Below, in pieces: positions 23,940-55,633 of a DNA stretch of 64,000 nucleotides (position 1 is its first letter; each line of letters begins with the position of its first letter). The position numbers and the translations under genes were made by a program. The notes below the pieces were generated by a model. It ran no database searches. It was not told where the DNA came from and saw only the letters and a program-made list of their open reading frames with translations. Origin of the DNA: Melioribacter sp. Lineage in GTDB: Bacteria; Bacteroidota; Ignavibacteria; Ignavibacteriales; Melioribacteraceae. The stretch lies in NCBI GenBank assembly GCA_023250955.1, contig JAHEZQ010000008.1:62001-126000 (forward strand). Reading direction: 5' to 3'.

Positions 23940-23946
23940 TTGAAAA

Positions 23947-30147: not shown

Positions 30148-30165
30148 CGCCTTATCCTAATATTT

Positions 30166-31704: not shown

Positions 31705-31762
31705 GATTATTTATAATATTTTATAATAAATATTTACTGAAGAATAATATTTAAATAAATTT

Positions 31763-31797: not shown

Positions 31798-31815
31798 CAA
31801 CAACAAAACAAGTGA

Positions 31816-36660: not shown

Positions 36661-37971
36661 TTATAATAGCTCAATACTGATTGGATGGCTTAATTCAGAA
36701 ATTGTTTTGTCTAAATATTCAATAAATTCTATTTTATTATGAATTCCATTCTTCTCATTTTCCCATGCAGAGCCAAAATAATATGTTAAATTCCCGTCTA
36801 CAGGTTTTAGTACCGAGATATAATTAAGAATATCCTCTGTATTTTTTACAAGATTTGATTTTTTATAAAATATTGCCAAGCCAAGATTATCATATGCTAA
36901 ACTCTGTTTCCCATATGTAGCAATATATCCCCATTCATAATTTTCTTTATCTAATATCAATGAACATTCTGCGTGTTTGGCAATTCCGGTACAAATTAAT
37001 TGTGAGGGATCTGATATTGTCAGATCCTCTCTTGTTAACCTACTGCCTGCTGAGATTGAGATTAGAGAAGAAATGTCGAATTGAGATTTACCTACTTTTG
37101 TATTTTTATAAGTGGTAAGAACATTAGATTTGATAATACCATCATTTGTAATTTTACAAGTTGTTGTTTCTGTATTTGAAATTGTATTGACTTGAGTATT
37201 ATCCCAAATCGCAATTGAACCAATGCCTAGTGATTCACCAACCTTAAAAATATCCATTCCCCAATCACACATTTTTGTATAGGATTCTTTGCTGTCAGAA
37301 ACCAAATCATTAATTCCGACAACATTTAGAACCAAATCATCGACTTTTTTGCCAAATATATCATTGCGATTTCGTGAATCAAGATAGAATCGGTATGCAA
37401 CTTTTTCTGATTCCCATCCCGGACCTTCATATTTATACAAAGCATTATGCGCAAAATGGTTAACTGGTACAGTACTATTCTTTACACTATTAAACTTACC
37501 TTTTGTATAAAATCCGTTTTCTAAAATGTAATCTGTTTTTACCGAAAGTTCGGCATGAGTTCTTTTCTTAAATTCTTTTTTAATAACTGCTAACTTGTCA
37601 TATTGAAGTGAAATTTTTTTTTCTTCACCGCGGATAAAGTCCACAACAATTAGAACGTTATCTGCTTTTTCATCCCCGTTAATATCTTCTGTCTGTGAGG
37701 GTATTTCTTTCTTCCTATCAAATACTGTAAAAGCTTTCTCGTTAAAATCTGGATATTTTTTTATGATACTACTTATCGGTATAGTAATTAGAGCATCCTT
37801 AACAGAATGGTTAGTGTGGTTGACAGCCTTGATCAAAATTATAGTTAGTAAACTATTATTTGAATTATATGATGTAAAACCAAGAGTTGGATAAAAGGTC
37901 GTTACAAACAAGAATAGACTAATTATTTTTTTTGACTTACTATTTCTAACTCTAATTCTCATATATACCAT
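36661..37971 (-). CDS. DUF4861-family exported protein
   Basis: This is a 436-aa protein with an N-terminal signal (about 14-33). The body matches DUF4861: YEGPGWESEKVAYRFYLDSR, NDIFGKKVDDLVL, DWGMDIFKVGESLGIGSI and the C-terminal VLKPVDGNLTYYFGSAWENE. DUF4861 proteins recur in pectin and uronate loci of Bacteroidota and their biochemical role is not known to me. It is the first gene of operon A, 46 nt before the TonB receptor and directly after the possible operator and hairpin region. A role in handling uronate oligomers in the periplasm is inferred from context. There is no clear ribosome-binding site; ATG 37962 is an alternative start. Confidence 0.75.
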   Translation of the reverse strand: MVYMRIRVRNSKSKKIISLFLFVTTFYPTLGFTSYNSNNSLLTIILIKAVNHTNHSVKDALITIPISSIIKKYPDFNEKAFTVFDRKKEIPSQTEDINGDEKADNVLIVVDFIRGEEKKISLQYDKLAVIKKEFKKRTHAELSVKTDYILENGFYTKGKFNSVKNSTVPVNHFAHNALYKYEGPGWESEKVAYRFYLDSRNRNDIFGKKVDDLVLNVVGINDLVSDSKESYTKMCDWGMDIFKVGESLGIGSIAIWDNTQVNTISNTETTTCKITNDGIIKSNVLTTYKNTKVGKSQFDISSLISISAGSRLTREDLTISDPSQLICTGIAKHAECSLILDKENYEWGYIATYGKQSLAYDNLGLAIFYKKSNLVKNTEDILNYISVLKPVDGNLTYYFGSAWENEKNGIHNKIEFIEYLDKTISELSHPISIELL

Positions 37972-38250: not shown

Positions 38251-39729
38251 CTATTTTATAAAAACCTGAAGTTTATCATTGATATATGTATCCCGAATAA
38301 CTAATCCCTTTACATTTTGTATTGTTGATCCCTTCTTAACTCCGTCAAATCTGCACTTTTCAATCTTTATATTATTGATGTAAGATTCATCTAAACCAAC
38401 AAAATATAGAGCTTGATTACTTTTTTTACTTGTTACTCCGCGGACATTTATATTACGCCACTCGGGTATAAATGCACCATACTTACCTTCAGCTGGTTCA
38501 TATTGCATATCAAAATGAATAACAGCATCCTTTACTTCACCGATTTTTATGTTCCTAATAAAAATATTTTCAACGAGACCCCCACGATAAAAATTTGCTT
38601 TAATCCGAATTGCACGATCTAAATCCGGACTATCCATTTCACAATTTTCTGCAAAAACATTTCTACATCCTCCTGATATTTCACTACCAATAGTTACTCC
38701 CCCATGTCCGTCATTCATTTTACAATTTTGAATAATAATATTTTCACTAGGAATGTTTATTCTCCTGCCATCATAATTTCTACCTGATTTTATAGCAATA
38801 CAGTCATCTCCATTTTTGAAATAACAATTTTTAATCAAAACATTTTTACACGATTCAGGATCACAGCCGTCAGTATTTGGTCCTATCCCAATTGTTGATA
38901 CATCTTTAATAATAACATTTTGACAAAGGATTGGATGAATTACCCACATTGGTGAATTCAAAAATGTTACTCCTTCAATCAAAACATTTCTGCAATTTAT
39001 TAATTGTAAAAAGTTGGGACGAAGATAATGTCCTTTACCAAAAATTCTTTCGTTAACAGGTGTTTGCAGATTATTCATTTTTACTAATAATGGTCTTCCA
39101 ATACTATCTGACTGGCTTGGCATTCCCTCTTTCCAACCAAATGATTTATTTCCCTTCCAACTCCACCAGTTGGATTCATTTGCTTGAGCATCAAAAATTC
39201 CTTCACCTGTAATTGCAATATTTTCTTGTCCCAGAGCATAAATTAAAGATGAATAATTATAACACTCCATCCCTTCCCACCTTGTAAATACAACTGGTAA
39301 ATAATCTTCGGAATCATTACTAAATTTTATAAGCGCACCTTTTTGAAGATGAAGATTTACATTATTTCTTAAGTGTATAGGACCTTTTATGATATAATTT
39401 CCTGGAGGAATAATTATTTTCCCACCGCCGTTTTTAGAACATTCAAAAATTGCTTTGTCAAATGCGGATTTACAATCAGTAACTTGATCTGCCACGGCAC
39501 CAAATTTTGTAATTAAAAATTCTTTGTTGGGAAATTTGGGTGCTTTTATTTTTTTAAGAATCCCAGATAGTTGAGTCCATCCTTTTTCTGTTTCGTGTTT
39601 TCTAAGTTCGCTATAACTATAACTGCTTCCATTATTAAAAAGAGAAATTAGAATTGCAAACAAAGACAAGTATTCAAACTTTTTAAGAAGTCTAATAAAA
39701 TATTTTTTTTTAGATATTTTTACTTGCAT
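38251..39729 (-). CDS. GH28 polygalacturonase
   Basis: This is a 492-aa beta-helix glycoside hydrolase with an N-terminal membrane/signal segment (about 18-37). All GH28 motifs are present: Asn285-Thr-Asp287 (PNTDGCDP), Asp308-Asp309 (NGDDCIAIKSG), His342-Gly-Gly (DGHGGVTIGSE) and Arg375-Ile-Lys377 (AIRIKAN). It hydrolyses alpha-1,4-galacturonosyl bonds in pectin, probably as an exo-acting or rhamnogalacturonan form in the periplasm. It lies 27 nt after the LacI regulator and is the last gene of operon B. No sorting domain is present, unlike the PL9 enzyme. Confidence 0.92.
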   Translation of the reverse strand: MQVKISKKKYFIRLLKKFEYLSLFAILISLFNNGSSYSYSELRKHETEKGWTQLSGILKKIKAPKFPNKEFLITKFGAVADQVTDCKSAFDKAIFECSKNGGGKIIIPPGNYIIKGPIHLRNNVNLHLQKGALIKFSNDSEDYLPVVFTRWEGMECYNYSSLIYALGQENIAITGEGIFDAQANESNWWSWKGNKSFGWKEGMPSQSDSIGRPLLVKMNNLQTPVNERIFGKGHYLRPNFLQLINCRNVLIEGVTFLNSPMWVIHPILCQNVIIKDVSTIGIGPNTDGCDPESCKNVLIKNCYFKNGDDCIAIKSGRNYDGRRINIPSENIIIQNCKMNDGHGGVTIGSEISGGCRNVFAENCEMDSPDLDRAIRIKANFYRGGLVENIFIRNIKIGEVKDAVIHFDMQYEPAEGKYGAFIPEWRNINVRGVTSKKSNQALYFVGLDESYINNIKIEKCRFDGVKKGSTIQNVKGLVIRDTYINDKLQVFIK

Positions 39730-39756: not shown

Positions 39757-40785
39757 CTAACCTCTATTATATTTAACACATGTGCCTCGTAGTATTAAAT
39801 TTGTATCTATAATCAGTTGTTTGGGTTCAAATGTTTCTTTGTTTTCAATATTTTCAATCAAAACTTGTAATGATTTAATAGCTATTTCATCAGTCGGTTG
39901 ATTAACACAGCTTAGCGGGGGTAAAAGGAAATTTTGAACTTGTGCATTTCCAAAACAGATTATATCTATATCATCAGGTATCATCATCTTGACTTCATTT
40001 GCTGCCATATAAATACCAAGTGCTACCGGATAAGTAACAGCAAAAATTAAATCTGGAAGATTTTTTTCTTTATATAGTTTCATAAATAGATCATAACCGC
40101 TCTTTTCACCAAAACCACTTTCCAATACCCAATCCGGATTTACCTCTATACCGTTACTATGCATCGCTTGTTTGAATCCTAATAATCTTTCACGCCCTAT
40201 GTTTATGTTAGTATTACCGGAAAAATGGCCGATATTTCGGTATCCTAATTTGATTGCATAGTCAATTGCATTAAACGCACCGCTTCTATCATCAACGGTA
40301 ACTTTGTTTATCTCCGCAATATCTGGAGTACGATCCATAAAGACTAAGGGCACTTCTCTGCTCTTAACTGTATCAAAGATTTCATAATTTTTTGTCTCTT
40401 GTGCAATTGATATGATTATTCCTTCCACTCTCATTGACAAAAGAGTTTGGATATGTTTTTTTTCTCGAACTTCACTTTCTTGAGAGACAGTAAGAATGAT
40501 TTCATAGTTATGCTCGAAAGCATAATTATAAATATGCTCAATGATCGAACTAAAAAAATGATGTGCTATTTTAGGAACGACTACTCCGATTGTGTTAGAT
40601 CTTCTGGCGGAAAGATTACGAGCCATAAAATTTGGTGAATATCCCAATTTTTCTGCCATAGCTTTAACAAGTTTAGTTGTCTTTGGTGAAATATCAGGAT
40701 GCCCTCGTAAAGCTTTTGAAATTGTAACAGTAGAGACATTAAGTTTCTTTGCAATGTCGCTTAAAGTAATATGTCTTGATAGCAT
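39757..40785 (-). CDS. LacI-family transcriptional regulator
   Basis: This is a 342-aa regulator. Residues 5-50 are the LacI HTH and hinge helix (ITLSDIAKKLNVSTVTISKAL, GYSPNFMARNL). The rest is a periplasmic-binding-protein-like sensor domain (NTIGVVVPKIAHHFF, VPLVFMDRTP, VDDRSGAFNAIDY, GHFSGNTN). It is embedded in operon B between uxaC and GH28, so it very likely controls uronate and pectin genes and responds to a uronate or KDG-type inducer. Candidate operators with a central CG sit before both operons. Inducer and mode (repressor) are inferred from the family. Confidence 0.9.
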   Translation of the reverse strand: MLSRHITLSDIAKKLNVSTVTISKALRGHPDISPKTTKLVKAMAEKLGYSPNFMARNLSARRSNTIGVVVPKIAHHFFSSIIEHIYNYAFEHNYEIILTVSQESEVREKKHIQTLLSMRVEGIIISIAQETKNYEIFDTVKSREVPLVFMDRTPDIAEINKVTVDDRSGAFNAIDYAIKLGYRNIGHFSGNTNINIGRERLLGFKQAMHSNGIEVNPDWVLESGFGEKSGYDLFMKLYKEKNLPDLIFAVTYPVALGIYMAANEVKMMIPDDIDIICFGNAQVQNFLLPPLSCVNQPTDEIAIKSLQVLIENIENKETFEPKQLIIDTNLILRGTCVKYNRG

Positions 40786-40820: not shown

Positions 40821-42227
40821 TCAAAAACCGAAATAGTTTTTTGCATTGTTATAACAGATATCTGAAATCATCTTGCCTAATAATTCTATATCATTTGGAA
40901 TTAATCCCTTTTCAATATCATCTCCAACAGCATTACATAAGATTCTTCTAAAATAGTCATGTCTGGGATATGATAAGAAACTTCTTGAATCAGTTAACAT
41001 TCCTACAAAACGACTCAACAAGCCCATATTGGAAAGGGTTTCAATTTGTTTTTCAATTCCGCTTTTTTGATCCAAGAACCACCATGCACTTCCGTATTGT
41101 AATTTTCCTTCAATCGTACCATCTTGGAAATTTCCAATCATTGTTGCCATTAACTCATTATCACGAGGATTTAGATTATAGATAATTGTCTTTGTTAACC
41201 TATTTTCATCATCAAGACGATTTAAATATTTTGACAATGGTTTTGCAATTTCAAAATCACCGATTGAATCAACTCCGATATCTGCACCAAGTTTACGAAA
41301 CAATCTTGTATTATTGTTTCTTAAAGCACCAAGATGTAATTGTTGAACCCATCCTTTTTCAAAATTCATTACACCGAACTCATACATTATTGCAGATTTA
41401 AATTTTAGTTTCTCTAATATATTTAATTCTTTTTTTGATAATATTTTCGAAAAAATAAAATTAATTTCTTTATCTGTATAATCTTCAGCATAAACTGTTT
41501 CAAGCCCATGGTCTGAAAGTCGGCAATTGTTTTCATGAAAATAGTTATGACGATTTCTTAAAGCATCAATAAATAATTTATAATTAGAGACTGAAATTTT
41601 TGAGGCCGCTTCTAATTTTTTCAACCATTCATGAAATTCTTCTATATTTTCAACAGCCATCGCATTATCCGGGCGGAATGAAGGAATTACTTTGGTGCTG
41701 AAAGAATTTTTCATTAACTGTTGATGAAATTCCAATGAATCGATAGGATCATCTGTTGTACAGATTACTTTGACGTTAAATTTCTTAATAATTCCTTGTG
41801 TTGAAAAATCATCTTTCTGAAGTAATGCATTGCAATCATTCCAAATTCCTTCCGCAGTATCTTTATTTAATAATCTATCAGAAATTCCAAACGGCTTTTT
41901 TAATTCCATATGTGTCCAATGGTAAAGAGGATTTTTCAATGTATACGGTACAGTTTCTGCCCATTTGAAAAACTTTTCTTTGTCACTTTTATCACCCGTA
42001 ATAAATTTTTCGTCTACACCGTTAGTGCGCATAACACGCCATTTGTAGTGGTCGCCATTAAGCCAAATTTGAGTCATGTTATCAAAATTCTTATTCTCAG
42101 CAATCTCTTTTATAGGCAGATGACAATGATAATCTATAATAGGTTGATCTTTAGCATAATCAAAATAAAGCTTCTCTGCAGTTTTGTTTTGAAGAAGAAA
42201 ATTCTCTTTAATAAAAATGTCTTTCAT
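40821..42227 (-). CDS. uxaC: glucuronate/galacturonate isomerase
   Basis: This 468-aa cytosolic isomerase turns D-glucuronate into D-fructuronate and D-galacturonate into D-tagaturonate. It has the amidohydrolase-like metal motif IIDYHCHLP near the start, ENFLLQNKTAEKLY at the N-terminus, LTDSRSFLSYPRHDYFRR near the end, and the typical length. The frame is open to a TTG at 42257, but ATG 42227 gives the usual UxaC start (MKDIFIKENFLL). It follows the hexuronate transporter by 22 nt. It feeds UxuB directly with fructuronate and, through UxaE, with tagaturonate-derived fructuronate. Confidence 0.95.
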   Translation of the reverse strand: MKDIFIKENFLLQNKTAEKLYFDYAKDQPIIDYHCHLPIKEIAENKNFDNMTQIWLNGDHYKWRVMRTNGVDEKFITGDKSDKEKFFKWAETVPYTLKNPLYHWTHMELKKPFGISDRLLNKDTAEGIWNDCNALLQKDDFSTQGIIKKFNVKVICTTDDPIDSLEFHQQLMKNSFSTKVIPSFRPDNAMAVENIEEFHEWLKKLEAASKISVSNYKLFIDALRNRHNYFHENNCRLSDHGLETVYAEDYTDKEINFIFSKILSKKELNILEKLKFKSAIMYEFGVMNFEKGWVQQLHLGALRNNNTRLFRKLGADIGVDSIGDFEIAKPLSKYLNRLDDENRLTKTIIYNLNPRDNELMATMIGNFQDGTIEGKLQYGSAWWFLDQKSGIEKQIETLSNMGLLSRFVGMLTDSRSFLSYPRHDYFRRILCNAVGDDIEKGLIPNDIELLGKMISDICYNNAKNYFGF

Positions 42228-42249
42228 ATTGTTTTCATATTTAGATAAG

Positions 42250-43515
42250 TTATTCAAATTTCACTTGTGCATCATCGAGATTTGGAATTAGATAGTTAAA
42301 AATAATCCAAGCAATCAAATAGGTAGAACCGCAAATGATAAATAGAGCAATGTAACTTCCAGTTAATTGTAGAATAAATCCAGCAGCAGTTGCAATTAAC
42401 ATTCCTCCTATTGCGCCAGCCATTCCTCCGAGACCAACTACAGAGGCCACTGCTTTTCTTGGGAATAAATCTGAGGCTGTTGTAAATAAATTTGCAGACC
42501 AACCTTGATGTGCCGCTGCAGCTAAACTAATAAGAGCAACAGCTACCCAGATATTGCTCGTTTGAGAGACCATGACAATTGGAATTACACTGACAGCACA
42601 TAACAACATCGCAGTTTTTCTTCCTCTATTTATACTCCAACCTCTCTTAATTAATGTAGACGATAACCATCCTCCCCCAATACTTCCAATATCAGCAACA
42701 ATGTATATTATTATCAATGGTGGACCAATTTTATCTAATGTGATACCATAATTATTAAATAAAAATTTAGGCACCCAGTATAAATAGAACCACCATATAG
42801 GATCTGTTAGAAACTTTGCGCTTGCAAAAGCCCAAGTTTGTTGATGTTTCAGAAGGCTTGTCCAAGGGATTTTTACGGTGGGGTCAGTAGGATCTGATTG
42901 AATATATTCACGTTCGGGTTGTTTAAGTCGTTTATGAATTTCAGGTCTTTCATACAATAGCCACCAAAAAAATACCCAAATAAAACCAATTGCACCAGTA
43001 AATATAAATGCCTCTTGCCATCCATAAGTTAATGCAATCCAAGGAACAACAAGTGGTGCGATGATAGCTCCAACATTTGAGCCTGAATTAAATAATCCAG
43101 TTGCAAACGCCCTCTCCTTCTTTGGGAACCATTCTGCTACAGTTTTAATTGCTGCCGGAAAATTTCCAGCTTCAGAAAGACCTAAAAAGAATCTTGCAGT
43201 TCCAAAACCAAACACTGTAGTTGCTGCTGCATGTCCCATTGCAGCAATGCTCCATCCAAACACAGAGAGAGTATATCCAATCTTTGTCCCAAATCTGTCA
43301 ATAATTCTTCCGACAACTAACAAACCAATTGCATAAGCGGCTTGGAATGCCGTTACAATATAACCGTAATCAATTTCATCCCACCCGATGTCTTTCTGAA
43401 GAATAGGAGCTAAGATACCTATGACTTGTCTATCAATGTAATTTATTGTTGTTGCTAAAAATATCAATAGAACGATTGTCCATCTGAATTTTCCAACTTT
43501 CAATTTTTCTTCCAT
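42250..43515 (-). CDS. exuT: hexuronate:proton symporter (MFS, ExuT-like)
   Basis: This is a 421-aa inner-membrane transporter of the anion:cation symporter branch of MFS, with 12 predicted hydrophobic segments. It has the start WTIVLLIFLATTINYIDRQV, the family motif RFFLGLSEAGNFPAAIKTV, and EWFPKKERAFATGLFNSGSN, all as in ExuT. It takes up galacturonate and glucuronate. The codon at 43518 is TTG; ATG 43515 with GGAG 8 nt upstream is preferred. It lies between eda and uxaC. Gene naming rests on the family motif and neighbours; related members carry tartrate or galactonate. Confidence 0.85.
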   Translation of the reverse strand: MEEKLKVGKFRWTIVLLIFLATTINYIDRQVIGILAPILQKDIGWDEIDYGYIVTAFQAAYAIGLLVVGRIIDRFGTKIGYTLSVFGWSIAAMGHAAATTVFGFGTARFFLGLSEAGNFPAAIKTVAEWFPKKERAFATGLFNSGSNVGAIIAPLVVPWIALTYGWQEAFIFTGAIGFIWVFFWWLLYERPEIHKRLKQPEREYIQSDPTDPTVKIPWTSLLKHQQTWAFASAKFLTDPIWWFYLYWVPKFLFNNYGITLDKIGPPLIIIYIVADIGSIGGGWLSSTLIKRGWSINRGRKTAMLLCAVSVIPIVMVSQTSNIWVAVALISLAAAAHQGWSANLFTTASDLFPRKAVASVVGLGGMAGAIGGMLIATAAGFILQLTGSYIALFIICGSTYLIAWIIFNYLIPNLDDAQVKFE

Positions 43516-43542
43516 CAAATTTTCTCCGGTCGAATAAAATGA

Positions 43543-44181
43543 TTATTTGTTTTTCAATTTCGCAATGCTCAATGCGCTTGATGTTAAATTTTTTATCTCG
43601 TCAAATTTTTTGTTTTGTATTAACTCACTTTTAACCATCCAACTTCCACCACATGCTAATACTCTTGGAAAATTTAAATAATTCAGAAGATTTTTTTCAT
43701 CAATACCACCGGTGGGAATAAATTTAAGATTGCTGTATGGTGATGAAATTGCCTTTAGATAATTTAATCCGCCAAGCACTTCTGCCGGGAAAAATTTTAC
43801 TACTTCTAAATTAAATTCCAGAGCCCGTTCAACTTCCGTTGGTGTAGCTATTCCGGGAGTTATAAGTATATCATTAGATAAGCAATATTCAACCACTCTA
43901 GGATTTAATCCGGGAGAAACAATAAATTTAGCTCCAGCATCAACAGCACCTTTAACTTGATCTACTGAAAGTACAGTCCCGGCACCTAATAACATTTGAG
44001 GAAATTTACCGGCTATTTTATCAATTGATTCTTTAGCTTCTTTTGTTCTAAACGTAATTTCTGCTACCGGCAATCCACCATTTATCAAAGCATTTGCAAG
44101 TGGAATAGCATTTTCAACCTCATCAATTATTATTACCGGAATAATTTTGTATAAACCAATTTCTTCTAAAATTTTATTCAT
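43543..44181 (-). CDS. eda: KDPG / 4-hydroxy-2-oxoglutarate aldolase
   Basis: This is a 212-aa class I aldolase that splits KDPG into pyruvate and glyceraldehyde-3-phosphate. The active-site residues of Eda are in place: Glu41 and Arg45 (VAEITFRT), the Schiff-base Lys129 (VVKFFPAE), and the phosphate loop PTGGID. Length is normal. It sits between kduI and the hexuronate transporter in operon B and closes both the unsaturated-uronate and the mannonate branch after KDG kinase. Confidence 0.94.
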   Translation of the reverse strand: MNKILEEIGLYKIIPVIIIDEVENAIPLANALINGGLPVAEITFRTKEAKESIDKIAGKFPQMLLGAGTVLSVDQVKGAVDAGAKFIVSPGLNPRVVEYCLSNDILITPGIATPTEVERALEFNLEVVKFFPAEVLGGLNYLKAISSPYSNLKFIPTGGIDEKNLLNYLNFPRVLACGGSWMVKSELIQNKKFDEIKNLTSSALSIAKLKNK

Positions 44182-44206: not shown

Positions 44207-45040
44207 TTATTTTAGACTCTTCATTTCAATCGCATCCATGTCATCAAACACCTGGTTCTCACCTCCCATTGCCCAAATGAAAGAATAATTTTGTGTTCCG
44301 GCACCTGCATGCATTGACCAGCTTGTGGAAAGAACCGCTTGACGATCCCTAATAATTACATGTCGTGTTTCTGTTGGCTCGCCTAAAAGATGAACAACAA
44401 ATGCATCGGGTTTAATATTGAAATAAACATACACTTCCGAACGTCTTTGATGTGTATGGGCAGGCATCGTATTCCAGACACTTCCTTCTTCAAGATCGGT
44501 TAGTCCCATTGCTAATTGGCAAGTCGGTATTGTCTGCGGAAGTATGTATTGATTAATCGTTCTTTCATTTGCTTGTTCTTTTGAACCTAACTTTTTATGA
44601 ATTGCATCTTCAAACTTTATAAGTTTTGTTGGATATTCTTTATGCGCGGGATAACTTACAAAATAAAATTGCGATGGATTTGCAGCATTAACACTTTTAA
44701 ATTCGATTTCTTTTGAACCTCTACCTATATAAACGCAATCTCGATAATTCATCTTATATTCTTTGCTATCTATTATAATAGATCCTTCTTTGCCGATGTT
44801 GATAACTCCGATTTCCCTTCGTTCAGCAAAATATTCTGCCGCCATTTCCCTTTTTGTTGCAACCAATTTCAAACTTTTTCCAGATGGAACTGCCGAGCCT
44901 GTAATTGATCTGTCAATATCAGAATAGACCATCGGGATTTCATTAATTTGAAAAAGATTTTGAATCAAAAATGACTTCCGTAATTCTTCAGTTGTCATTT
45001 TCCTAAACCCATTCTGGTCTGGTGAATATCTGACTTCCAT
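44207..45040 (-). CDS. kduI: 5-dehydro-4-deoxy-D-glucuronate isomerase (KduI)
   Basis: This 277-aa cupin-fold enzyme isomerises 5-keto-4-deoxyuronate (DKI) to DKII for KduD. It has the start MEVRYSPDQNGFRKMTTEELR, REIGVINIGKEG, and the metal site MPAHTHQRRSEVYVYF, all like KduI. The true start is ATG 45040; the frame is open to a TTG at 45055, but the upstream gene ends at 45042 and AAGGA at 45045-45049 serves this ATG. KduD is encoded in operon A, so the two-step pathway is split over two operons. Confidence 0.95.
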   Translation of the reverse strand: MEVRYSPDQNGFRKMTTEELRKSFLIQNLFQINEIPMVYSDIDRSITGSAVPSGKSLKLVATKREMAAEYFAERREIGVINIGKEGSIIIDSKEYKMNYRDCVYIGRGSKEIEFKSVNAANPSQFYFVSYPAHKEYPTKLIKFEDAIHKKLGSKEQANERTINQYILPQTIPTCQLAMGLTDLEEGSVWNTMPAHTHQRRSEVYVYFNIKPDAFVVHLLGEPTETRHVIIRDRQAVLSTSWSMHAGAGTQNYSFIWAMGGENQVFDDMDAIEMKSLK

Positions 45041-45041
45041 T

Positions 45042-46325
45042 TTATTCCTTATCAATATTAAATTTATTTTTATAAGCCCATAATCCTAAAGCAGGATTAG
45101 AGATGAAAAATATTTCTTCACCATCCGGCAATCTATTAAATCCGTCAACTAACAATTCCGGATTATATTTTTGCATCATAAGATTCAGATCATCGTATTT
45201 ATAATTCACATTTTCGATTTCTTCTTTGGTTAAATATCCGGAACAATATGTAATGGTAAATCTGTTCTCGGATGAACCGTGTATTAGATGAGCCGCCGCG
45301 CTTAAATTATTTTTTATATCTTCATTCTCATCAACAAATTTCAATACTTCCGGGGTTGTTACGTAACCATATTTTCTAATTAAGCTGTCAATAGTTTTAT
45401 CTTCACCAAATTCTTTTAGACCGGGAGCTAATACTATAAGCTCTCCATCATCTGCAATTGCCATTCTTGTCCTGTACACACTTTTATTTCCAAGCCATGT
45501 GCTTTTGTATTCAGAAGGATCTAAATAAACAATAACTTTATTTAAGGGTTTATCAAGTATCTCAAAATTTACTTTGAGTGAAAGCTCAGATGCTTTATTA
45601 AAACATTCGTCATCATCACCGATATACAAACCTCGTACAACGAGGTTACCTTTATCATCTTTATCAACGACGGTTAGTACATAAACTATTGGTAGATGTT
45701 TTGCAAAATTTTCAGAAGCATAGTTTAGAACTCTTCTAACCGGAGTATCAGCATGCCCCATCATTCTTTCCATTCCATAAACTGCACCTAGAAAATGGCT
45801 TTTATTAATTCCTTCTTTGCCACCTGTGCCAATAAAAATATTTTTGTTATAATTTGCCATTCCAACAACTTCATGAGGAACAACTTGTCCGATAGATAAT
45901 ATTAAATCATGATTCCCTTGTACAAGAAGTTTATTTACTTGAGCAGGCCAACTGTAGTTAAGCTTACCTTCGGAAACTTTATAAATAAAATCTGTAGGGA
46001 CTTCTCCAAGGGTTACTAAATCGCTACGCCAATTGTGAACTCTAAATAAATTATGAGGAATATCTTTGTACATCTCATTAATAGCTGCACTTGTCATTGG
46101 AGAGTGAGTCCCTAGTGCAGGTAATATATCAGTAAGAAATTCTTTATAATATTGATAAACGAATGTGGTAAGTAAACCTGCTTGCGAATGATAACGTGTG
46201 AAATCCGGTGGTATTGCCAATACTTTTTTCTTAAGCCCAAGCTTACTAAGACTCGAAAATATTGCTTCTTTTAAATCATTAACCGTTAATATATCTTTAT
46301 CGCTACCACGAGCAAATAATAACAT
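45042..46325 (-). CDS. LarA-family nickel-pincer 2-hydroxyacid epimerase (DUF2088)
   Basis: This is a 427-aa homologue of the lactate racemase LarA. Similarity is seen in the N-terminal DFTRYHSQAG (Arg44), ALGTHSPMT (His74), the VVPHEVVGMANYN block (His151), and GTGGKEGINKSHF with Lys170 in the place of the lysine that carries the nickel-pincer cofactor and His177 nearby; the spacing is not the same as in LarA. Relatives of LarA act on malate, phenyllactate and D-gluconate. In this operon a sugar-acid C2 epimerase, for example acting on mannonate or gluconate, is a fair inference. LarB, LarC and LarE, needed to make the cofactor, are not in the window. Operon: pfkB 23 nt upstream, kduI 1 nt downstream. 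Confidence 0.75.
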   Translation of the reverse strand: MLLFARGSDKDILTVNDLKEAIFSSLSKLGLKKKVLAIPPDFTRYHSQAGLLTTFVYQYYKEFLTDILPALGTHSPMTSAAINEMYKDIPHNLFRVHNWRSDLVTLGEVPTDFIYKVSEGKLNYSWPAQVNKLLVQGNHDLILSIGQVVPHEVVGMANYNKNIFIGTGGKEGINKSHFLGAVYGMERMMGHADTPVRRVLNYASENFAKHLPIVYVLTVVDKDDKGNLVVRGLYIGDDDECFNKASELSLKVNFEILDKPLNKVIVYLDPSEYKSTWLGNKSVYRTRMAIADDGELIVLAPGLKEFGEDKTIDSLIRKYGYVTTPEVLKFVDENEDIKNNLSAAAHLIHGSSENRFTITYCSGYLTKEEIENVNYKYDDLNLMMQKYNPELLVDGFNRLPDGEEIFFISNPALGLWAYKNKFNIDKE

Positions 46326-46348: not shown

Positions 46349-47431
46349 TTAACGTTGAATACGAGCAGAGCCGCCTTTCGCAAATGCTTTTACTTCATCA
46401 ATTGTTGCCATTGTTGTATCTCCGGGATAAGTAGTTAGAAGAGCACCATGAGCCCAACCAAGTTTTACAGCTTCTTCGGGAGTTTCATTTGTCAATAATC
46501 CATAAATAAATCCAGCTGCAAAACCGTCCCCGCCACCGACACGATCGTAAATATCAAGTTCTGCTGTCGGAGCTTGATATGTTTTGCCGTTGACCCATGC
46601 AACTGCACTCCAGCTATGGCGATTCGTTGAATGTACCTCACGCAAAGTAGTAGCAACTACTTTTACTTGAGGATACTTTTTAATTACGTCGTCAATCATA
46701 CCGAAAAAAATTGTTGGATCAAGTTTTGATTTTGCCATTACTTCCGGACCTTTAATTCCCAAACCTTTTTGCAGATCTTCTTCATTACCGACTAACACAT
46801 CAACGTGCTGTACTATACGATCAATTACTTCAGCAGCTTTTTGTTCACCACCCCAAATATTCCATAGCTTTGCTCTAAAGTTGAGGTCAAAACTTGTAAT
46901 CGCTCCAGCTGCTTTTGCCGCTTTCATTCCTTCGATAATTACTTCTCCAGTTGTTGCAGAAAGCGACGCAAAAATTCCGCCGCTGTGAAACCAGCGGGTT
47001 CCACCGGAAAAGATTTCGTTCCAATTAAAATCACCGGGTTTTAATTGTGCTGCAGCTTCATTTGATCTATTATAAAATACAAATGGCGCTCTTGAACCAT
47101 ATCCGCCGTCACTGTAAACCGTTGCCATGTTTGGTCCGTTAACACCGTTGTGCTTAAATTGTTTGAAGAACGGTTTAACACCCATTGCACGAACTCGTTC
47201 AAATATTAAATCTCCAATCGGGTAATCAACAATTGCACTTGCTATACCAGTATTCATTCTAAAACAATCCGATAAATTTGCGGCAACATTAAATTCGCCT
47301 CCGCTAACATGAATTTTACATTCGGTTGCTTTTCTAAATGGAATTATTCCGGGATCTAGACGATGAACCAACGCACCAAGTGAAACAAGATCTAACGAAC
47401 CTTTTGATTTGATATTTAAACCACTGCTCAT
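46349..47431 (-). CDS. PfkB-family sugar-acid kinase (second KDG-type kinase)
   Basis: This is a 360-aa ribokinase-family enzyme with GGEFNVAANLSDC in the N-terminal half, SFDLNFRAKLWN and NEEDLQKGLGI (both shared with KDG kinases), and a complete C-terminal motif DRVGGGDGFAAGFIYGLL. It starts after an AAGGAT site and lies between the UxuB-type reductase and the LarA-like gene. A KDG or related 2-keto-3-deoxy acid is the likely substrate, because the aligned blocks match the kdgK product at 24985. It is longer than that protein by 18 aa and has an insertion around residue 110 (YGSRAPFVFYNRSNEAA), so it may use a different sugar acid. Confidence 0.8.
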   Translation of the reverse strand: MSSGLNIKSKGSLDLVSLGALVHRLDPGIIPFRKATECKIHVSGGEFNVAANLSDCFRMNTGIASAIVDYPIGDLIFERVRAMGVKPFFKQFKHNGVNGPNMATVYSDGGYGSRAPFVFYNRSNEAAAQLKPGDFNWNEIFSGGTRWFHSGGIFASLSATTGEVIIEGMKAAKAAGAITSFDLNFRAKLWNIWGGEQKAAEVIDRIVQHVDVLVGNEEDLQKGLGIKGPEVMAKSKLDPTIFFGMIDDVIKKYPQVKVVATTLREVHSTNRHSWSAVAWVNGKTYQAPTAELDIYDRVGGGDGFAAGFIYGLLTNETPEEAVKLGWAHGALLTTYPGDTTMATIDEVKAFAKGGSARIQR

Positions 47432-47456: not shown

Positions 47457-48305
47457 TTATACACCGGAGTAAGCGCTGAATCCGCCATCAACAGGAATAA
47501 CAATTCCAGTTACAAATTTTGACATATCGGAAATTAAGTAAAGTAATGTCCCAACTAGTTCCTTGGGTTCACCAAATCTTCCCATAGGTGTGCCTGAAAG
47601 AATTTTGTTACCACGGGCTGTTAGCTCTCCGGTTTTTTCATCCGTTAATAAAAATCTATTTTGATTTGTTAAGAAGAAACCGGGCGCAATAGCATTTACT
47701 CTAACATCAACTTTCGCAAAATGAACTGCAAGCCATTGAGTAAAATTATTAACCGAAGATTTTGCTGCTGAGTAAGCAGGAATTTTTGTCAAGGGTCTGA
47801 AAGAATTCATAGAAGAAATATTAATTATTGAACCGCCGCGCTGAAGCATATCTTCTGCAAATACCATTGACGGCAAAACAGTGCCTAGAAAATTCAGATC
47901 AAATACATTTCTAAATCCTTCAAGATCTAAACCGAAAAAAGTTTTGGAAAGATCTTTTACATTATCATTTGTAATGAATTCTTCTTTCGTTGTTGCAGTC
48001 GGGGCATTTCCGCCGGCACCGTTAATTAAAATATCTACCTTTCCGAATTCTGAATTGATCTGAGCTTTAGCTTCAATTAAACTCTTTTTATCTAGTACAT
48101 TGGCAACAACGCACAATACTTGTGAACCGGATTGTTTAGCAATCCCCGCCGTACATTCTTCACATCTTCCTTTTTTATAATCTAATATTGCAACTTTAAC
48201 ACCGGAATTTATTAATGCTTCCGAAAACACATTTCCAAACACTCCGCATCCGCCTGTAAGCACACAAACTTTGTCTTTTACATTTAGAAATGAATTTAAT
48301 TCCAT
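47457..48305 (-). CDS. uxuB: D-mannonate/fructuronate oxidoreductase, SDR type (UxuB-like)
   Basis: This is a 282-aa short-chain dehydrogenase with the cofactor motif LTGGCGVFGNVF, NGAGGNAP, catalytic Tyr-x3-Lys in PAYSAAKSSV and the end VTGIVIPVDGGFSAYSG. Its size and the insertion after NGAGG match the Bacillus YjmF (UxuB) type, which reduces D-fructuronate to D-mannonate. It is the first gene of operon B; an AGGAG site precedes the ATG. The KduD protein is a shorter, distinct member. The product mannonate has no visible dehydratase in the window. Confidence 0.78.
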   Translation of the reverse strand: MELNSFLNVKDKVCVLTGGCGVFGNVFSEALINSGVKVAILDYKKGRCEECTAGIAKQSGSQVLCVVANVLDKKSLIEAKAQINSEFGKVDILINGAGGNAPTATTKEEFITNDNVKDLSKTFFGLDLEGFRNVFDLNFLGTVLPSMVFAEDMLQRGGSIINISSMNSFRPLTKIPAYSAAKSSVNNFTQWLAVHFAKVDVRVNAIAPGFFLTNQNRFLLTDEKTGELTARGNKILSGTPMGRFGEPKELVGTLLYLISDMSKFVTGIVIPVDGGFSAYSGV

Positions 48306-48586: not shown

Positions 48587-49843
48587 ATGGAGAATAAAGT
48601 GGAACTTGAAAAATTTTCTGTTGGAATAGGCGACCGTTTTGGAAAAGAATGTCTTGCACAACTTAATGCCGTCAATCAAGCTAAACAATTTGGTGTAGAT
48701 CTAGTACCCGTATGGAATAAATCCTTTCGAGAACATTCAATAATTGGAAGTAATCCAGCAGAAACATCAAGAATTGTTCAGTCTGCGATCGAAATTTCTA
48801 AATGGAGTGATTCATATTATATAGATGCAGACCATATCAATTTTAATTCTGTTGATCATTTCATGGATCATTCTAATTTTTTTACCATTGATGTCGGATC
48901 ATTTATAAATAAAAAAGCAACTGATGAAGAGACAAAAGCTTTTTTAATAGAAGCTTCCATTTTTATCGGTACTATCGAAATTCCAGGCGTGATTAATAAA
49001 TTTAGGATTGATGATAAACTATTGCTCGGGATCGCAGAAAAATATTTAGCAGCAATAAAAGAAGCTGGGAGAATCTATCGTCACATTTTATCTAAAAGAA
49101 AACAAAATGACTTCGTAGTGGAAATTTCATTTGACGAAGTTGATCAACCACAGACCCCAATAGAATTATTTTTTATAATTGCTGCTGTTGCTTATGAAAA
49201 AATACCAATCCAAACCATTGCTCCAAAATTTGTAGGTAAGTTTCTTAAAGGAATTGATTATATAGGTGATGTTTCAATTTTCGAAAAAGAGTTTGAAGAA
49301 ATCATTCTGGTTATTGAATATTGTAAAAAAATATTTGTTCTTCCTAAAAATTTAAAGCTTAGCGTTCATTCAGGTAGCGACAAATATTCAATTTATCCTA
49401 TAATCAATAAGTTGATAAAAAAACATAATGTCGGTCTCCATCTTAAAACTGCAGGGACTACTTGGCTTGAAGAATTGATAGGGTTATCGCTATCAGGTGA
49501 AAAGGGATTAAACTTAGTTAAAGAAATTTATTCTCAGGGATATTCCAGATATGATGAATTATTACTACCATATCTTCACTCTGTAGAAATTTCAAAAGAA
49601 AAGTTGCCCTTACCATCAGAAGTAATGAAGTGGGATCAAAACAAGTTAGTTAACTCATTAAAACACGAACCTAAGAGTAAATTATTAGATAATAATTTCC
49701 GTCAGTTGTTACATATCTCCTTTAAAATTGCTGCTGAAAAAGGAAATTTATACTTTGAAATGCTAGAAGAAGCAAAAGATACAATAAGCAATTGTGTTAC
49801 TGAAAATCTTTTTAATAGACACATTAAAAAGATCTTCTGCTAA
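48587..49843 (+). CDS. uxaE: tagaturonate epimerase
   Basis: This 418-aa cytosolic protein matches UxaE, the tagaturonate-fructuronate C3 epimerase described in Thermotoga maritima. Supporting blocks are FSVGIGDRFGKECLAQL at the start, YYIDADHINFNSVDHFM, FVVEISFDEVDQPQTPIEL, KLSVHSGSDKYSIYP and VGLHLKTAGTTWLEE. It joins the galacturonate branch (tagaturonate from UxaC) to the fructuronate branch, so altronate enzymes are not needed; none are seen here. It is transcribed divergently from operon B, from a shared region that holds a candidate LacI site. Confidence 0.88.
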   Translation: MENKVELEKFSVGIGDRFGKECLAQLNAVNQAKQFGVDLVPVWNKSFREHSIIGSNPAETSRIVQSAIEISKWSDSYYIDADHINFNSVDHFMDHSNFFTIDVGSFINKKATDEETKAFLIEASIFIGTIEIPGVINKFRIDDKLLLGIAEKYLAAIKEAGRIYRHILSKRKQNDFVVEISFDEVDQPQTPIELFFIIAAVAYEKIPIQTIAPKFVGKFLKGIDYIGDVSIFEKEFEEIILVIEYCKKIFVLPKNLKLSVHSGSDKYSIYPIINKLIKKHNVGLHLKTAGTTWLEELIGLSLSGEKGLNLVKEIYSQGYSRYDELLLPYLHSVEISKEKLPLPSEVMKWDQNKLVNSLKHEPKSKLLDNNFRQLLHISFKIAAEKGNLYFEMLEEAKDTISNCVTENLFNRHIKKIFC

Positions 49844-50515: not shown

Positions 50516-53500
50516 TTAGTTAAATATAACTCTAAAAGTTGAACCGACATTTTTTTCACTCTCAACTTCTATTATTGCATTGTTAATATGGCAGTAATTT
50601 TTTACAAGGGCTAATCCAAGACCATTGCCTTCAAAGCTTCTTGAATATCCTTGCTCTTCTTGAACAAACGGATCAAATAGTTTTGGGAGAAATTCTTTAC
50701 TTATTCCAATGCCAGTGTCTTTAACTTCAACCAGGATTTTGCCGGTTTTATCTTTCTCTAAAAGTATTTCTACTTTTCCTTTTTTTGTGTACTTAATAGC
50801 ATTGTCTATCAAGTTTGCAAAGATTTGAGTTATACTATATTCGTCGGCATATACATTTGCATCTTTTTCTTTACAAGTAAATATAAATTCTAATCCTTTT
50901 TGTTTGGCTGTAAGCTGATACTCTTGATACAATTTACTAAGCACTTCTAATTTAAGACCAACTTTTCTAAATTGTGGCTTATAACCACTGGTTTGTAATT
51001 CTGATACATTAAGTATCAAATCAACAGTTCTAATAATTCTATTTGAAGCCATGTTAATACTGTCAAGACTGTCTCGAGTATCGGGATCAATTTTTTTACC
51101 AAACGACTCGCTGAGGTAATCAACATTTCCAACAATTGCATTTAGAGGAGTTCTAATTTCGTGCGACATTTGTGCAAGAAATTCTGATTTCAGTTTGTCG
51201 GATTGTTGAGCTAATTCTTTTGCTTCGATCAATTCTTGCTCAGCACGTTTGCGCTCGGTTATATCTGTTGCAACACCTATCAATCCTAAAGGTTTGCCTT
51301 CTTTATCATTTATAATTGTTGTGGAAAGATAAATCGGGAATTCACTTCTATCTTTTCTTTTATTCCATAATTCACCATGCCATCCACCGCTTATTGTATT
51401 CGGTAATATTTCTTTAACTATTTCCGTCGAATTGTTAAACGAACGTAACATACTAACATTTTTTCCTATCAACTCATTCTCGTTGTAACCATAAGTTTTC
51501 AAAAATGAGTCATTAACAAACACAATGTTATCATCCAGATCTGTGATACTAACACATTCATTTACACTTCTTAAAGAATGTGCAAGCATTAATATTTCTT
51601 CTTCGGCACGTTTGCGATCAGTTATATCAATTATCTGTGTTATAAAAAATTGAGGTTGAAGATTGGTCCCTCGTATTAATGATGCGGAAACATAAGCCCA
51701 AATTATTCTTCCATCTTTCTTGATATAGCGTTTTTCAAATGATGCATTATCAATTTCATCATCTAACATTTTTTTAAATTGAGATAAACCAATAGATAAA
51801 TCATCAGGGTGAGTAATATCAGAGAAAGTAAAATTTTTCATTTCATCTTCGTTATATCCTATCATTTCTGTAAAAGCTTGGTTAATTCTTTGAAATTTTT
51901 TATTAATTCCCAAAATGCACATACCAGTAGCGGCATAATCAAAAGAATGCCGAAATCTTTCTTCGCTTTCTCGCAACGCTTCTTCAGCACGTATGCGATC
52001 AGTAATATCAACATCGGCTCCGCGATATCCAATAAGGTTATTTCCCTTATCAAGAATTGGAAAACCGGTTGTAGAAAGAATAATTTTTCTGCCGTCTTTG
52101 TGAATATTACAATTAATAAAATTTCTAAAGCTTTCTTTACGGGCAAAAGCTTCTAGAGCGCCCTTTTTTAGTTCTTCTTTAATTTCTGGATCGAAAAAAT
52201 CATAAAAATATTTAATGCCAATAATTTCTTCGGCTTCATAACCCAATAATTCTTTTATAATCGGACTTACATAAGTGTATATACCGTTTTTATCTACTTC
52301 CCAAATCCATTCGTGTGCGCTTTCTGATACTTGTTTAAATCGCAATTCACTTTTTATCAATGATTCTTGGGCTTTTTTTCTTTTTGTTATATCTTCAACA
52401 GTCCCATCATAGTATAAAGTCTTTCCTTTAGAATCACGGATAGCTTTTGCGCTTTCACTTATATAAACGATTGTTCCATCTTTTCTGACCCATGCAGATT
52501 CTAAGCCCTTGACTTCCCCATTTTTTTCTATCTGTTCAAGAAATAGTTTGCGATCATAAGTGGGTTCGAAACCATCTTTTTCAAGATTCCTTGATTCAAG
52601 TTCTTCCAAAGTTGAGTACCCAAGCATCTTAACTAAGGTTGGATTTGATAATAGAATTTTTCCGTCAGGTGTAGTTCTATAAAGGCCCATAGTGGAATTT
52701 TCATAGAGTGAACGAAAACGTTCTTCGCTTTCTTTAAGTGCTTCTTCTGTATGCTTTCGCTCGGCAATATTCCTTGCAATCACTTGAACGCCGTTTTGTC
52801 CCATTACGTTTATTGGTACTGCAGTTACTTCTGCATCGAATATTTTTCCTTTTAATGAAACCAATTTTTCTTCTATCATTGGAACATTGATTTCTTCATC
52901 AACTATTTTACTAATTCTCTGCTTAACAATTTTTTTATAATCGGAATGAACTAGATCAATTATTTTTTTCCCTATCAGATTATCCTTATTTACAGCATCG
53001 AACAATTTTACCGCAGCAATATTTACAAATTGTATTATTCCATCTATGTGAATAAGTACTGCGTCTGGCGAAAGTTCTACAAGTTTACGGTATTTCTCTT
53101 CACTATCTTTTAACGCTAGTTCAGCTTTTTTTCTATTAGTAATAACATCAAAAACAGCGATAAAATATTCTTCTCTATTACTGTAAACTGAAACAGAAAA
53201 CCACATATCAAGAGCGGGTACATAGGATTCAAGTTGTTCTGGTTTGCCTGTTAATGAAACTCTACCATATACATCGAAAAGTTCAGGATTAGATTCTTTA
53301 ATACCTGGAATAACTTCTGTAACTTTTTTCCCAATAACATTTCTTAGTCCAGTAAGCTCTTCAAACTTGCGATTAATATCGAGATAGATAAAATCTTGCG
53401 GAATTCCATTTTCGAAATACATTTTGCAATATGCAAATCCCTCAAGCATGTTTTCAAAAAGTGAACGGTATTTCTCTTCACTTTCGCGCAATGCATTCTC

Positions 53501-55018
53501 TGCAAGTTTGCGCTCAGTAATATCGATTGTAAATCCAGCAAGGTAACGCGGTTTTCCCTCAATATTAATTGGAAATTTTATAGTTGTGTAGTAACGATTA
53601 TCTAATTCTTCATCAACTTTTATAAGCTTATCACCATGGAATATTTTTTTATCATCTTCAACAATACTTTTAGCTAGATCAGAAGGAAAAAGATCATCCA
53701 TGTTTTTGCCAAGAATATCTTTTAGTGGCATGTTCAGCATTTGCTCGAAATTATTGCTTAATCTTATTGCACGAATGTTTTCATCCTTAAAAAATATGTG
53801 AATGGGACTATGTTGCATTAATTGATTAAATATTTCTTCGTTCTCACGGATTTTAAGTTCGGCAGCTTTCCGTTCTGTAATATCCTGCACAATACCATAC
53901 ATTCGAATTGGATTACCTTTTTGGTTATAAAAAACTTCACCTTTCGTGTATGTGTACCTGCGTGTACCGTCATATCTTATAATACTGTACTCGCCTTCGA
54001 ATGGCTTTCTTTTGTTCAAAGCATCCTCGATAGCCATTAAGAAATTATGTTTGCATTCAGGCGATAAAGTATTGATTACCACCTCGTAACTCGGTTTATC
54101 TTTTTGGGGATCAAGCCCATAAAGCTTATAAACTTCTTCTGACCAAATCGTCTCATTCGTTGCCAAATCCCATTCCCAGCTTCCCATTCTACCAATTTCC
54201 TGGGCTTTCACAAGAATTGCTTTGCTTTCACGCAATTGTTCTTCAGCGCGTTTACGCTCGGTGATGTCTGCAATGTTTCCCAATAAAGCATTTCCGCCTT
54301 CATAGTTAATTACTTGAATTGCAATAGAAACTTCTATTCTTCTTTTGTCCTTTGTTAACAATGCATATTCATTAGTTTTATTTGTTATTCCTTTGAATCG
54401 ATTAGCAAAATTTTCTTTTACCATTTCAACATATTCCGGTACAATCAAATCTAAAAAATTAAACGTTGGATCTAAGAACTCGTCTTTAGTATAGCCCATT
54501 ACTTCTATACATTTTTTATTTATATAAACAACATGACCTGCTTTATTAATAAAGATCATATTTGGTGATTCTTCAGCGTAGCTTCTAAATTTTTCCTCGG
54601 ATTCTTTTAACTCTCGGGTTATTTTCTCTTTTTCTAAATAAGCTTTCGTTTTCTCAAGCGCTTCTTTTACTGCCAACGGCAGACGTGTAATATGTTCTTT
54701 AATAATATAATCAGTAGCGCCTGCTTTCATACATTTAACTGCAATCTCTTCATTTGCGGAACCGGTTAAAAGTAAGAAAGGAGTATTGGGGTTACTTTCC
54801 AAAGTTATTTTTAGAGCTCTCATACCATCAAATTTGGGCATATTGTAATCTGAGATGATTACATCCGGTCGAAAATCTTCTAAGTGATGAATAAAATCAA
54901 TTTCATTATCAACAACACACGACTCAAATTTTATTCCTTCTTTTGAAAGAGTACGCTTTGCAAGCTCAACATCTGTCGGCAAGTCTTCAACAAATAAAAT
55001 TTTTAATTTGCTCTCCAT
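50516..55018 (-). CDS. REC-(PAS)9 histidine kinase
   Basis: This is a 1500-aa soluble kinase. An N-terminal receiver (1-125) has Asp57 (IISDYNMP). Nine PAS/PAC units (about 135-1270) follow, separated by DITERKRAEE-type linkers; the one near 620 ends NRKKAE, the one near 750 IAERKHTEE. Then come HisKA with His1286 (LAQMSHEIRTPLNA) and a HATPase (NLIDNAIKYT, DTGIGIS, GNGLGLALV). It has no transmembrane segment. It lies in the order membrane kinase, receiver, this protein, receiver. Its last PAS plus kinase core is nearly the same as that of the protein at 13746. Ligands of the PAS domains cannot be read. Confidence 0.92.
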   Translation of the reverse strand: MESKLKILFVEDLPTDVELAKRTLSKEGIKFESCVVDNEIDFIHHLEDFRPDVIISDYNMPKFDGMRALKITLESNPNTPFLLLTGSANEEIAVKCMKAGATDYIIKEHITRLPLAVKEALEKTKAYLEKEKITRELKESEEKFRSYAEESPNMIFINKAGHVVYINKKCIEVMGYTKDEFLDPTFNFLDLIVPEYVEMVKENFANRFKGITNKTNEYALLTKDKRRIEVSIAIQVINYEGGNALLGNIADITERKRAEEQLRESKAILVKAQEIGRMGSWEWDLATNETIWSEEVYKLYGLDPQKDKPSYEVVINTLSPECKHNFLMAIEDALNKRKPFEGEYSIIRYDGTRRYTYTKGEVFYNQKGNPIRMYGIVQDITERKAAELKIRENEEIFNQLMQHSPIHIFFKDENIRAIRLSNNFEQMLNMPLKDILGKNMDDLFPSDLAKSIVEDDKKIFHGDKLIKVDEELDNRYYTTIKFPINIEGKPRYLAGFTIDITERKLAENALRESEEKYRSLFENMLEGFAYCKMYFENGIPQDFIYLDINRKFEELTGLRNVIGKKVTEVIPGIKESNPELFDVYGRVSLTGKPEQLESYVPALDMWFSVSVYSNREEYFIAVFDVITNRKKAELALKDSEEKYRKLVELSPDAVLIHIDGIIQFVNIAAVKLFDAVNKDNLIGKKIIDLVHSDYKKIVKQRISKIVDEEINVPMIEEKLVSLKGKIFDAEVTAVPINVMGQNGVQVIARNIAERKHTEEALKESEERFRSLYENSTMGLYRTTPDGKILLSNPTLVKMLGYSTLEELESRNLEKDGFEPTYDRKLFLEQIEKNGEVKGLESAWVRKDGTIVYISESAKAIRDSKGKTLYYDGTVEDITKRKKAQESLIKSELRFKQVSESAHEWIWEVDKNGIYTYVSPIIKELLGYEAEEIIGIKYFYDFFDPEIKEELKKGALEAFARKESFRNFINCNIHKDGRKIILSTTGFPILDKGNNLIGYRGADVDITDRIRAEEALRESEERFRHSFDYAATGMCILGINKKFQRINQAFTEMIGYNEDEMKNFTFSDITHPDDLSIGLSQFKKMLDDEIDNASFEKRYIKKDGRIIWAYVSASLIRGTNLQPQFFITQIIDITDRKRAEEEILMLAHSLRSVNECVSITDLDDNIVFVNDSFLKTYGYNENELIGKNVSMLRSFNNSTEIVKEILPNTISGGWHGELWNKRKDRSEFPIYLSTTIINDKEGKPLGLIGVATDITERKRAEQELIEAKELAQQSDKLKSEFLAQMSHEIRTPLNAIVGNVDYLSESFGKKIDPDTRDSLDSINMASNRIIRTVDLILNVSELQTSGYKPQFRKVGLKLEVLSKLYQEYQLTAKQKGLEFIFTCKEKDANVYADEYSITQIFANLIDNAIKYTKKGKVEILLEKDKTGKILVEVKDTGIGISKEFLPKLFDPFVQEEQGYSRSFEGNGLGLALVKNYCHINNAIIEVESEKNVGSTFRVIFN

Positions 55019-55101
55019 AATTTCCTCATGCCTTAAAGATTTCTTATCATTTCGCCTGCATACTAGTAAGCAGATTCCTCATAATGACAGCAGCAGTCTT
55101 C

Positions 55102-55545: not shown

Positions 55546-55582
55546 ATTTCTACTCCTTTTTAAGAGCAAGGTAGTGGGCGAA

Positions 55583-55607
55583 AGTGAATAAGCAATAGTT
55601 ATTCACT
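55583..55607. repeat. 9-bp hairpin in the kinase-receiver spacer
   Basis: AGTGAATAA (55583-55591) and TTATTCACT (55599-55607) form a perfect stem with a 7-nt loop between the membrane kinase stop and the receiver start. No U run follows, so it is not a classic terminator; it could stabilise or separate the two messages. Confidence 0.45.
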
Positions 55608-55633
55608 ATTGTTCTATGCCTATTGCCTGCAAT

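Follow-up and report, generated by a model that had tools for sequence, protein, structure and literature searches.

A group 18 LarA homolog in a hexuronate operon of Melioribacter sp., a predicted mannonate-to-gluconate epimerase in a genome without recognisable LarB, LarC or LarE

What becomes of mannonate in a bacterium whose hexuronate operon lacks the mannonate dehydratase gene uxuA, and what might a LarA homolog be doing in that operon? Both questions are raised by a stretch of 64,000 nucleotides from Melioribacter sp. (the window), whose minus strand carries a hexuronate gene cluster, operon B. The cluster encodes an SDR of the D-mannonate oxidoreductase family in the UxuB role (47457-48305; PRK08277, 392.4 bits, cut-off 281), a PfkB-family kinase (46349-47431), the LarA homolog (45042-46325), the 5-dehydro-4-deoxy-D-glucuronate isomerase KduI (44207-45055; PRK00924, 413.2 bits, cut-off 250), the KDPG aldolase Eda (43543-44181; TIGR01182, 259.2 bits, cut-off 156), an MFS transporter of the sugar-acid type (42250-43518; best model below its cut-off) and, recognised by profile matches, the glucuronate/galacturonate isomerase UxaC (40821-42257). 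A LacI-family regulator (39757-40785) and a GH28 polygalacturonase-type hydrolase (38251-39729), likewise recognised by profile matches, follow on the same strand. The tagaturonate epimerase gene uxaE is divergent from operon B, on the plus strand (48587-49843; PF16257, 185.7 bits, cut-off 27.1, no NCBIfam match). A preliminary description of the locus had recognised UxaC, Eda, the kinase, the reductase and the adjoining UxaE, but had not mentioned KduI, whose ORF starts with TTG directly downstream of the LarA gene and, as listed, overlaps it by 14 bases. An inverted-repeat scan of four stretches for a LacI operator returned one 74% overlapping palindrome, at 40736-40767. A second pectin operon, operon A (pectate lyases, GH88, a pectinesterase-like protein, kduD and a candidate KDG kinase), and a DUF4861 protein occupy positions 22224-33504 and 36661-37971 of the window, and the pectin region has large PAS-domain sensor histidine kinases to either side (13746-19226, from profiles; 50516-58405, by eye).

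The LarA homolog is an intact ORF of 427 residues. Its matches to Pfam Lar_N (37.1 bits, cut-off 23.3, E 2.5e-9) and to NCBIfam NF052594 (NPN_18_hexonate, 'nickel-dependent putative hexonate epimerase'; 666.6 bits, cut-off 500) uphold the earlier family assignment and, as judged from these profiles, the protein is a member of LarAH group 18; it is referred to below as LarAH18. A 2020 paper already put forward 'a hexonate' as the substrate that group 18 epimerises (PMC7583248, section 8), and no protein labelled LarAH18 appears in its table of assayed proteins, the nine enzymes of PMC11770544 lying outside this check. The sole solved structure reached by sequence search was 4nar (E 2.1e-35), which is the Thermotoga maritima gluconate 2-epimerase GntE2 (PMC7583248). 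An AlphaFold2 model of LarAH18, built from 33 sequences (pLDDT 90.6, with residues 153-155 in the loop after the catalytic H151 below 50), aligned with 4nar at Z 41.6 over 393 residues and 27% identity in the structural alignment, and with holo-LarA, the lactate racemase 5huq, at Z 29.4. In a fold search with this model, ranks 1-12 were all LarA relatives (Z 41.6 to 22.3), and the next row had a Z of 6.0; the predicted fold is that of LarA.

The active site can be compared residue by residue. In LarA, R75, K184 and H200 bind the nickel-pincer cofactor (NPN), and D72, H108, H174 and K298 are catalytic (PMC7583248). Through the alignment with 4nar, the predicted active-site residues of LarAH18 are D41, R44, H74, H151, K161, H177 and K281, which match LarA D72, R75, H108, H174, K184, H200 and K298, respectively. 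All seven positions are invariant in 100 of 100 LarAH18 sequences, whether or not LarC is present (100 of 102 rows were kept for this count and for the tree discussed below, those under 400 residues being dropped), and the loop residues E152-V153 are identical in the same 100 sequences, again irrespective of LarC. The cofactor lysine had previously been placed in a GTGGK motif, at K170. This placement has to be corrected: position 170 is variable, its commonest letters being K (23) and R (10) in the 62 LarC-lacking sequences and A (13) and S (11) in the 38 LarC-carrying ones, and the lysine that aligns with GntE2 K164, itself equivalent to LarA K184 (PMC7583248), is the invariant K161, which lies in GMANYNK ten residues past H151. 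The histidine at the end of the motif first singled out, H177, does match LarA H200.

Which fates of mannonate does the rest of the genome (3.26 Mb, 67 contigs, 100% complete) allow? The absence of uxuA from the operon, noted at the outset, extends to the whole genome in a profile search, which leaves the canonical isomerase pathway to KDG without its UxuA. The preliminary description had suggested that gluconate, once formed, would be dehydrated to KDG. That route is unsupported here, with no IlvD/Edd-family (ILVD_EDD) protein in the genome and only two MR_MLE_C proteins, one resembling MenC (o-succinylbenzoate synthase) and one resembling a dipeptide-epimerase/racemase relative (with a score under the cut-off of the model), neither of them ManD-like; the neighbours in relatives point instead to a gluconate kinase and 6-phosphogluconate dehydrogenase. 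The gene for the latter, gnd, lies beside transketolase elsewhere in the genome, outside the window operon. The three components that a GntE-type route requires, a UxuB-type reductase, a LarA-type epimerase and gnd, are thus all found in this genome.

The gene neighbourhoods of relatives bear on the same point. LarAH18 scores above its cut-off in 52 of 146 genomes of the order Ignavibacteriales, giving 51 loci besides the window's own (a weak match in genome G145, locus L060, was excluded). On the same strand and within 5 kb of LarAH18, these 51 loci carry gnd in 46 cases, the SDR in 44, a PfkB kinase in 33, KduI in 29, UxaE in 27, Eda in 24, UxaC in 21, a PPi-phosphofructokinase (PPi-PFK) homolog in 7, the gluconokinase GntK in 5 and UxuA in 2, the labels being best phmmer matches to window or example proteins, with one example per cluster profile-checked and the relatives' transketolase cluster named by eye. 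The immediate downstream neighbour is gnd in 37/51 loci and GntK in 5/51. The window operon has no gnd, and KduI occupies the slot that gnd holds in the nearest relatives, L078 and L079. Among the best 80 named-genome loci of the matches listed, gnd lies close to LarAH18 in 57; of the 56 loci that have 3 kb flanks, 44 show it. The record titles of these 80 include Bacteroidota, Verrucomicrobiota, Planctomycetota, Acidobacteriota, Spirochaetota and others. Since a mannonate oxidoreductase-type SDR and gnd so often accompany LarAH18 in the order, the conversion of mannonate to gluconate is left as the missing link, and the gene context supports this step, already suggested in the preliminary description, as the predicted activity. 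LarAH18 is not simply a replacement of UxuA, because 15 of the 52 carriers also possess UxuA above cut-off, in two cases within 5 kb, and a role as strict substitute was rejected. Two further gene families recur at these loci: the DUF4861 family in 22/51 (cluster c10, named by eye from sequence likeness), and a gene for a PdxB-like 4-phosphoerythronate dehydrogenase, close to LarAH18 in six loci of the order, including L074:7939-9096.

We regard it as probable that LarAH18 is an epimerase of the LarA fold that acts at C2 and turns D-mannonate into D-gluconate, in a route from hexuronates through 6-phosphogluconate to ribulose-5-phosphate; substrate, reaction and direction are predicted, as is the specificity of the kinase, from observed gene content, residue conservation and operon association and from the modelled fold. 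UxaC would isomerise galacturonate and glucuronate, UxaE would epimerise tagaturonate to fructuronate, the SDR would reduce fructuronate to mannonate, and LarAH18 would invert C2 to yield gluconate. The gluconate would then be phosphorylated to 6-phosphogluconate, most likely by the PfkB kinase (46349-47431), and Gnd would produce ribulose-5-phosphate from it. Unsaturated pectin fragments would enter a separate KDG branch made up of KduI, KduD, the second PfkB kinase and Eda.

A division of labour between the two PfkB kinases is suggested by their neighbours and scores. The kinase of operon B had been called a KDG kinase; it is indeed a PfkB protein whose best models are KDG-kinase-like, with scores below cut-off, but it belongs to a subfamily distinct from that of the kinase of operon A (24985-26013, minus strand), which adjoins the 2-dehydro-3-deoxy-D-gluconate 5-dehydrogenase KduD (26044-26799, minus strand; TIGR01832, 381.4 bits, cut-off 338.9). 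The operon A kinase is the KDG kinase candidate (NF041633, 543.1 bits, cut-off 700; NF041332, 252.1 bits, cut-off 440) and outscores the operon B kinase on KDG-kinase models, both remaining below the cut-offs. All 33 PfkB proteins encoded just upstream of LarAH18 in relatives are nearer to the operon B kinase than to that of operon A (19 score 676-723 bits against the window kinase, 13 score 166-190 and one 269), and both kinase types are present in 6/51 stretches. Thirty loci have 5 kb of sequence to either side; of these, 21 have a PfkB kinase, four GntK, three the PPi-PFK homolog and two no kinase, and two kinds never occur together. Judged from its sequence and position, the PfkB protein adjoining LarAH18 may be a gluconate kinase. 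In seven of the 51 loci, a PPi-PFK homolog and a HAD hydrolase stand in the kinase place beside LarAH18 (L029:6904-9110, L041:6490-7770, L030, L038, L047, L055 and L071, with PRK14072 above cut-off in L041); this homolog may be an unrecognised sugar-acid kinase.

The order of the two last steps before Gnd could also be reversed, mannonate being phosphorylated first and LarAH18 acting as a 6-phosphomannonate 2-epimerase that gives 6-phosphogluconate directly. The galacturonate route studied in extracts of Lactobacillus suebicus likewise joins mannonate to 6-phosphogluconate and the pentose phosphates, but there a mannonate kinase acts first and is followed by a 6-phosphomannonate 2-epimerase, its gene not identified in that account (PMC6978723). 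The kinase gene usually lies between those of the SDR and LarAH18 in relatives, and the kinase types vary among loci, both of which would suit such an order. GntE2, the nearest solved relative, nevertheless takes unphosphorylated mannonate (PMC7583248), and the kinase in 5/51 loci is GntK, of the gluconokinase family; taken together, we judge a kinase-first order to be unlikely.

Epimerisation of free mannonate has a precedent in Thermotoga. In this genus, where T. maritima has the operon gnd-uxaRED-gntEK (PMC3750489), the route from mannonate via gluconate to 6-phosphogluconate was proposed by Rodionova 2012 (cited through PMC6978723); in vitro epimerisation of mannonate by GntE2 was demonstrated afterwards (PMC7583248). 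GntE2, or LarAH20, shares with LarAH18 the fold, the mapped active-site residues and the loop glutamate after the catalytic histidine, and both are accompanied by uxaE and gnd (PMC3750489, PMC7583248). By contrast, the two proteins belong to different LarAH groups, at the 27% identity given above, and T. maritima has LarC whereas the Melioribacter sp. genome does not. A search of the literature on Melioribacter roseus and galacturonate found nothing useful. The family and the type of pathway were already known; what is added is the operon-based assignment of group 18 to a step from mannonate through gluconate to the pentose phosphates, which narrows the substrate of the 2020 proposal for this same family, and its uncoupling from NPN biosynthesis in this order.

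This uncoupling rests on profile searches for LarB, LarC and LarE. In the Melioribacter sp. genome, no LarC was found, also with a profile for a divergent short LarC, and neither LarE nor LarB scored above cut-off. Across the order, LarC (PF01969) occurs in 5/146 genomes (G020, G036, G046, G110 and G115), and LarE above cut-off in 5/146 (G020, G036, G046, G113 and G115), sub-cut-off matches bringing the latter to 146/146. LarB is above cut-off in the same five genomes as LarE, with some match in 127/146, the weaker ones being read as PurE. Insensitive searching was considered as a cause of the absences and rejected: PF01969, as a control, matches both T. maritima and C. glutamicum. A non-homologous replacement would escape these profiles. 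All three genes are missing from 50 of the 52 LarAH18 carriers, and only G046 and G115 combine LarAH18 with LarB, LarC and LarE. A hand count gives 41 carriers with completeness of 90% or more and contamination of 5% or less, 39 of which lack all three Lar genes, and three carriers are single-contig genomes (G027, G031 and G033). Independence would predict 1.8 genomes with both LarAH18 and LarC (52 x 5 / 146); two were observed, so the two genes appear unlinked in the order. Around LarB, LarC and LarE of these genomes, a crude motif scan detected no adjoining LarA gene, and by such a scan L181, L182, L183 and L185, from genomes of the order, contain LarB, LarC and/or LarE without a nearby LarA-like gene.

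Outside the order, the picture is mixed. Of the best 80 listed named loci, 50 were tested for LarC, the remainder being ten assigned to Ignavibacteria by label or match and 20 more; LarC was found in 36 of the 50 carriers, mostly from other groups, six of the 36 having the short divergent form only; the named genomes come without completeness figures, so the 14 LarC-negative ones may include incomplete genomes. A quick tree built from 100 LarAH18 proteins, with SH-aLRT support only, requires 11 changes of the LarC state as against 30.6 in shuffles; the state follows lineage. The positions that best separate LarC-carrying from LarC-lacking sequences (103, 323, 239 and 170) are not mapped active-site residues. 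The short LarC (about 262-273 residues, as against roughly at least 390) has a His-rich middle and occurs in five Marinilabiliaceae records and one Chlorobiota MAG, all carrying LarAH18 (L175:7975-8769, L176:8071-8856, L177:7876-8688, L178:7598-8404, L179:7444-8262 and L180:7631-8416); L177 and L178 also have a LarB of low score next to it, and L177 a LarE below cut-off. It may be a variant nickel-insertion enzyme without the C-terminal part. A divergent LarC was rejected as an explanation for the order, since the short-LarC profile (A2) matched only the same five genomes as PF01969.

The preliminary description had named the absence of larBCE as a result that would tell against its proposal. 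This absence counts against ordinary NPN dependence in Melioribacter sp., and the system is not classed here as ordinarily NPN-dependent because the biosynthesis genes were looked for and not found. Both the operon data and the invariance of the active site nevertheless speak for an epimerase; what the absence puts in question is the cofactor, and it does not decide the function. Seven pairs of LarC-lacking sequences have dN/dS values of 0.039-0.090 (dS is close to 2 in two of them, and a further, eighth pair is saturated), which together with the invariant mapped residues indicates an enzyme under selection that has kept its cofactor site while the known cofactor source is missing. Either the cofactor arrives by an as yet undescribed route, or this branch works without NPN.

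If the latter, the protein in lineages without LarBCE might have lost NPN and catalyse a different reaction at this point of the pathway, such as the direct dehydration of mannonate to KDG. The lack of LarBCE would agree with this, as would the presence of Eda and a KDG-type kinase in the same operon and the failure to find any known mannonate dehydratase family (UxuA, IlvD/Edd and ManD-like were searched) in the genome. Yet R44, K161 and H177 are equally invariant in the 62 LarC-lacking and the 38 LarC-carrying sequences, the association with gnd is as strong without LarC (12/14 named loci) as with it (23/36), and KDG as the product would leave gnd unneeded, all of which makes a change of reaction quite improbable. 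We prefer a pincer-type cofactor from a source other than the known biosynthesis genes, because all mapped nickel-pincer residues are kept and those genes were not found. On the more specific reading, Ignavibacteriales, and perhaps some Planctomycetota and Chitinophagaceae, would run LarA on a pincer or pincer-like cofactor without LarBCE, by undescribed biosynthesis, by vitamin-like uptake or with a simpler pyridinium on the same lysine; here the case for and the case against seem to us evenly balanced. Finally, group 18 might act on a different hexonate or aldarate (altronate or another uronate-derived acid), with only an indirect link to gnd, a reading in keeping with the mere 'a hexonate' of PMC7583248 (section 8) and with the suspicion voiced there that the natural substrate of the related group 19 is a different one, but which the mannonate oxidoreductase-type SDR and gnd at 44 and 46 of 51 loci render the least probable of all.

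With mannonate epimerisation by LarAH18 as the preferred function, the passage of uronates into the pentose phosphate pathway by way of an epimerase would be widespread beyond Thermotoga, in Bacteroidota, Ignavibacteria, Planctomycetota and others. The controlled absence of NPN genes across an order is likewise added here, as are the corrections to two details of the first reading, and the literature searched, covered as passages, gave no report of a clade-wide LarA without LarBCE. Many cyanobacteria have LarB, LarC and LarE without LarA, so that pathway and enzyme are uncoupled there too (PMC11796402); the Ignavibacteriales, with a LarA homolog and no pathway, mirror this known puzzle of NPN makers without LarA. 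A LarA branch that is conserved and strongly constrained by purifying selection, its cofactor site intact but the known cofactor genes missing, poses a testable question about the origin of its cofactor or of whatever takes its place.
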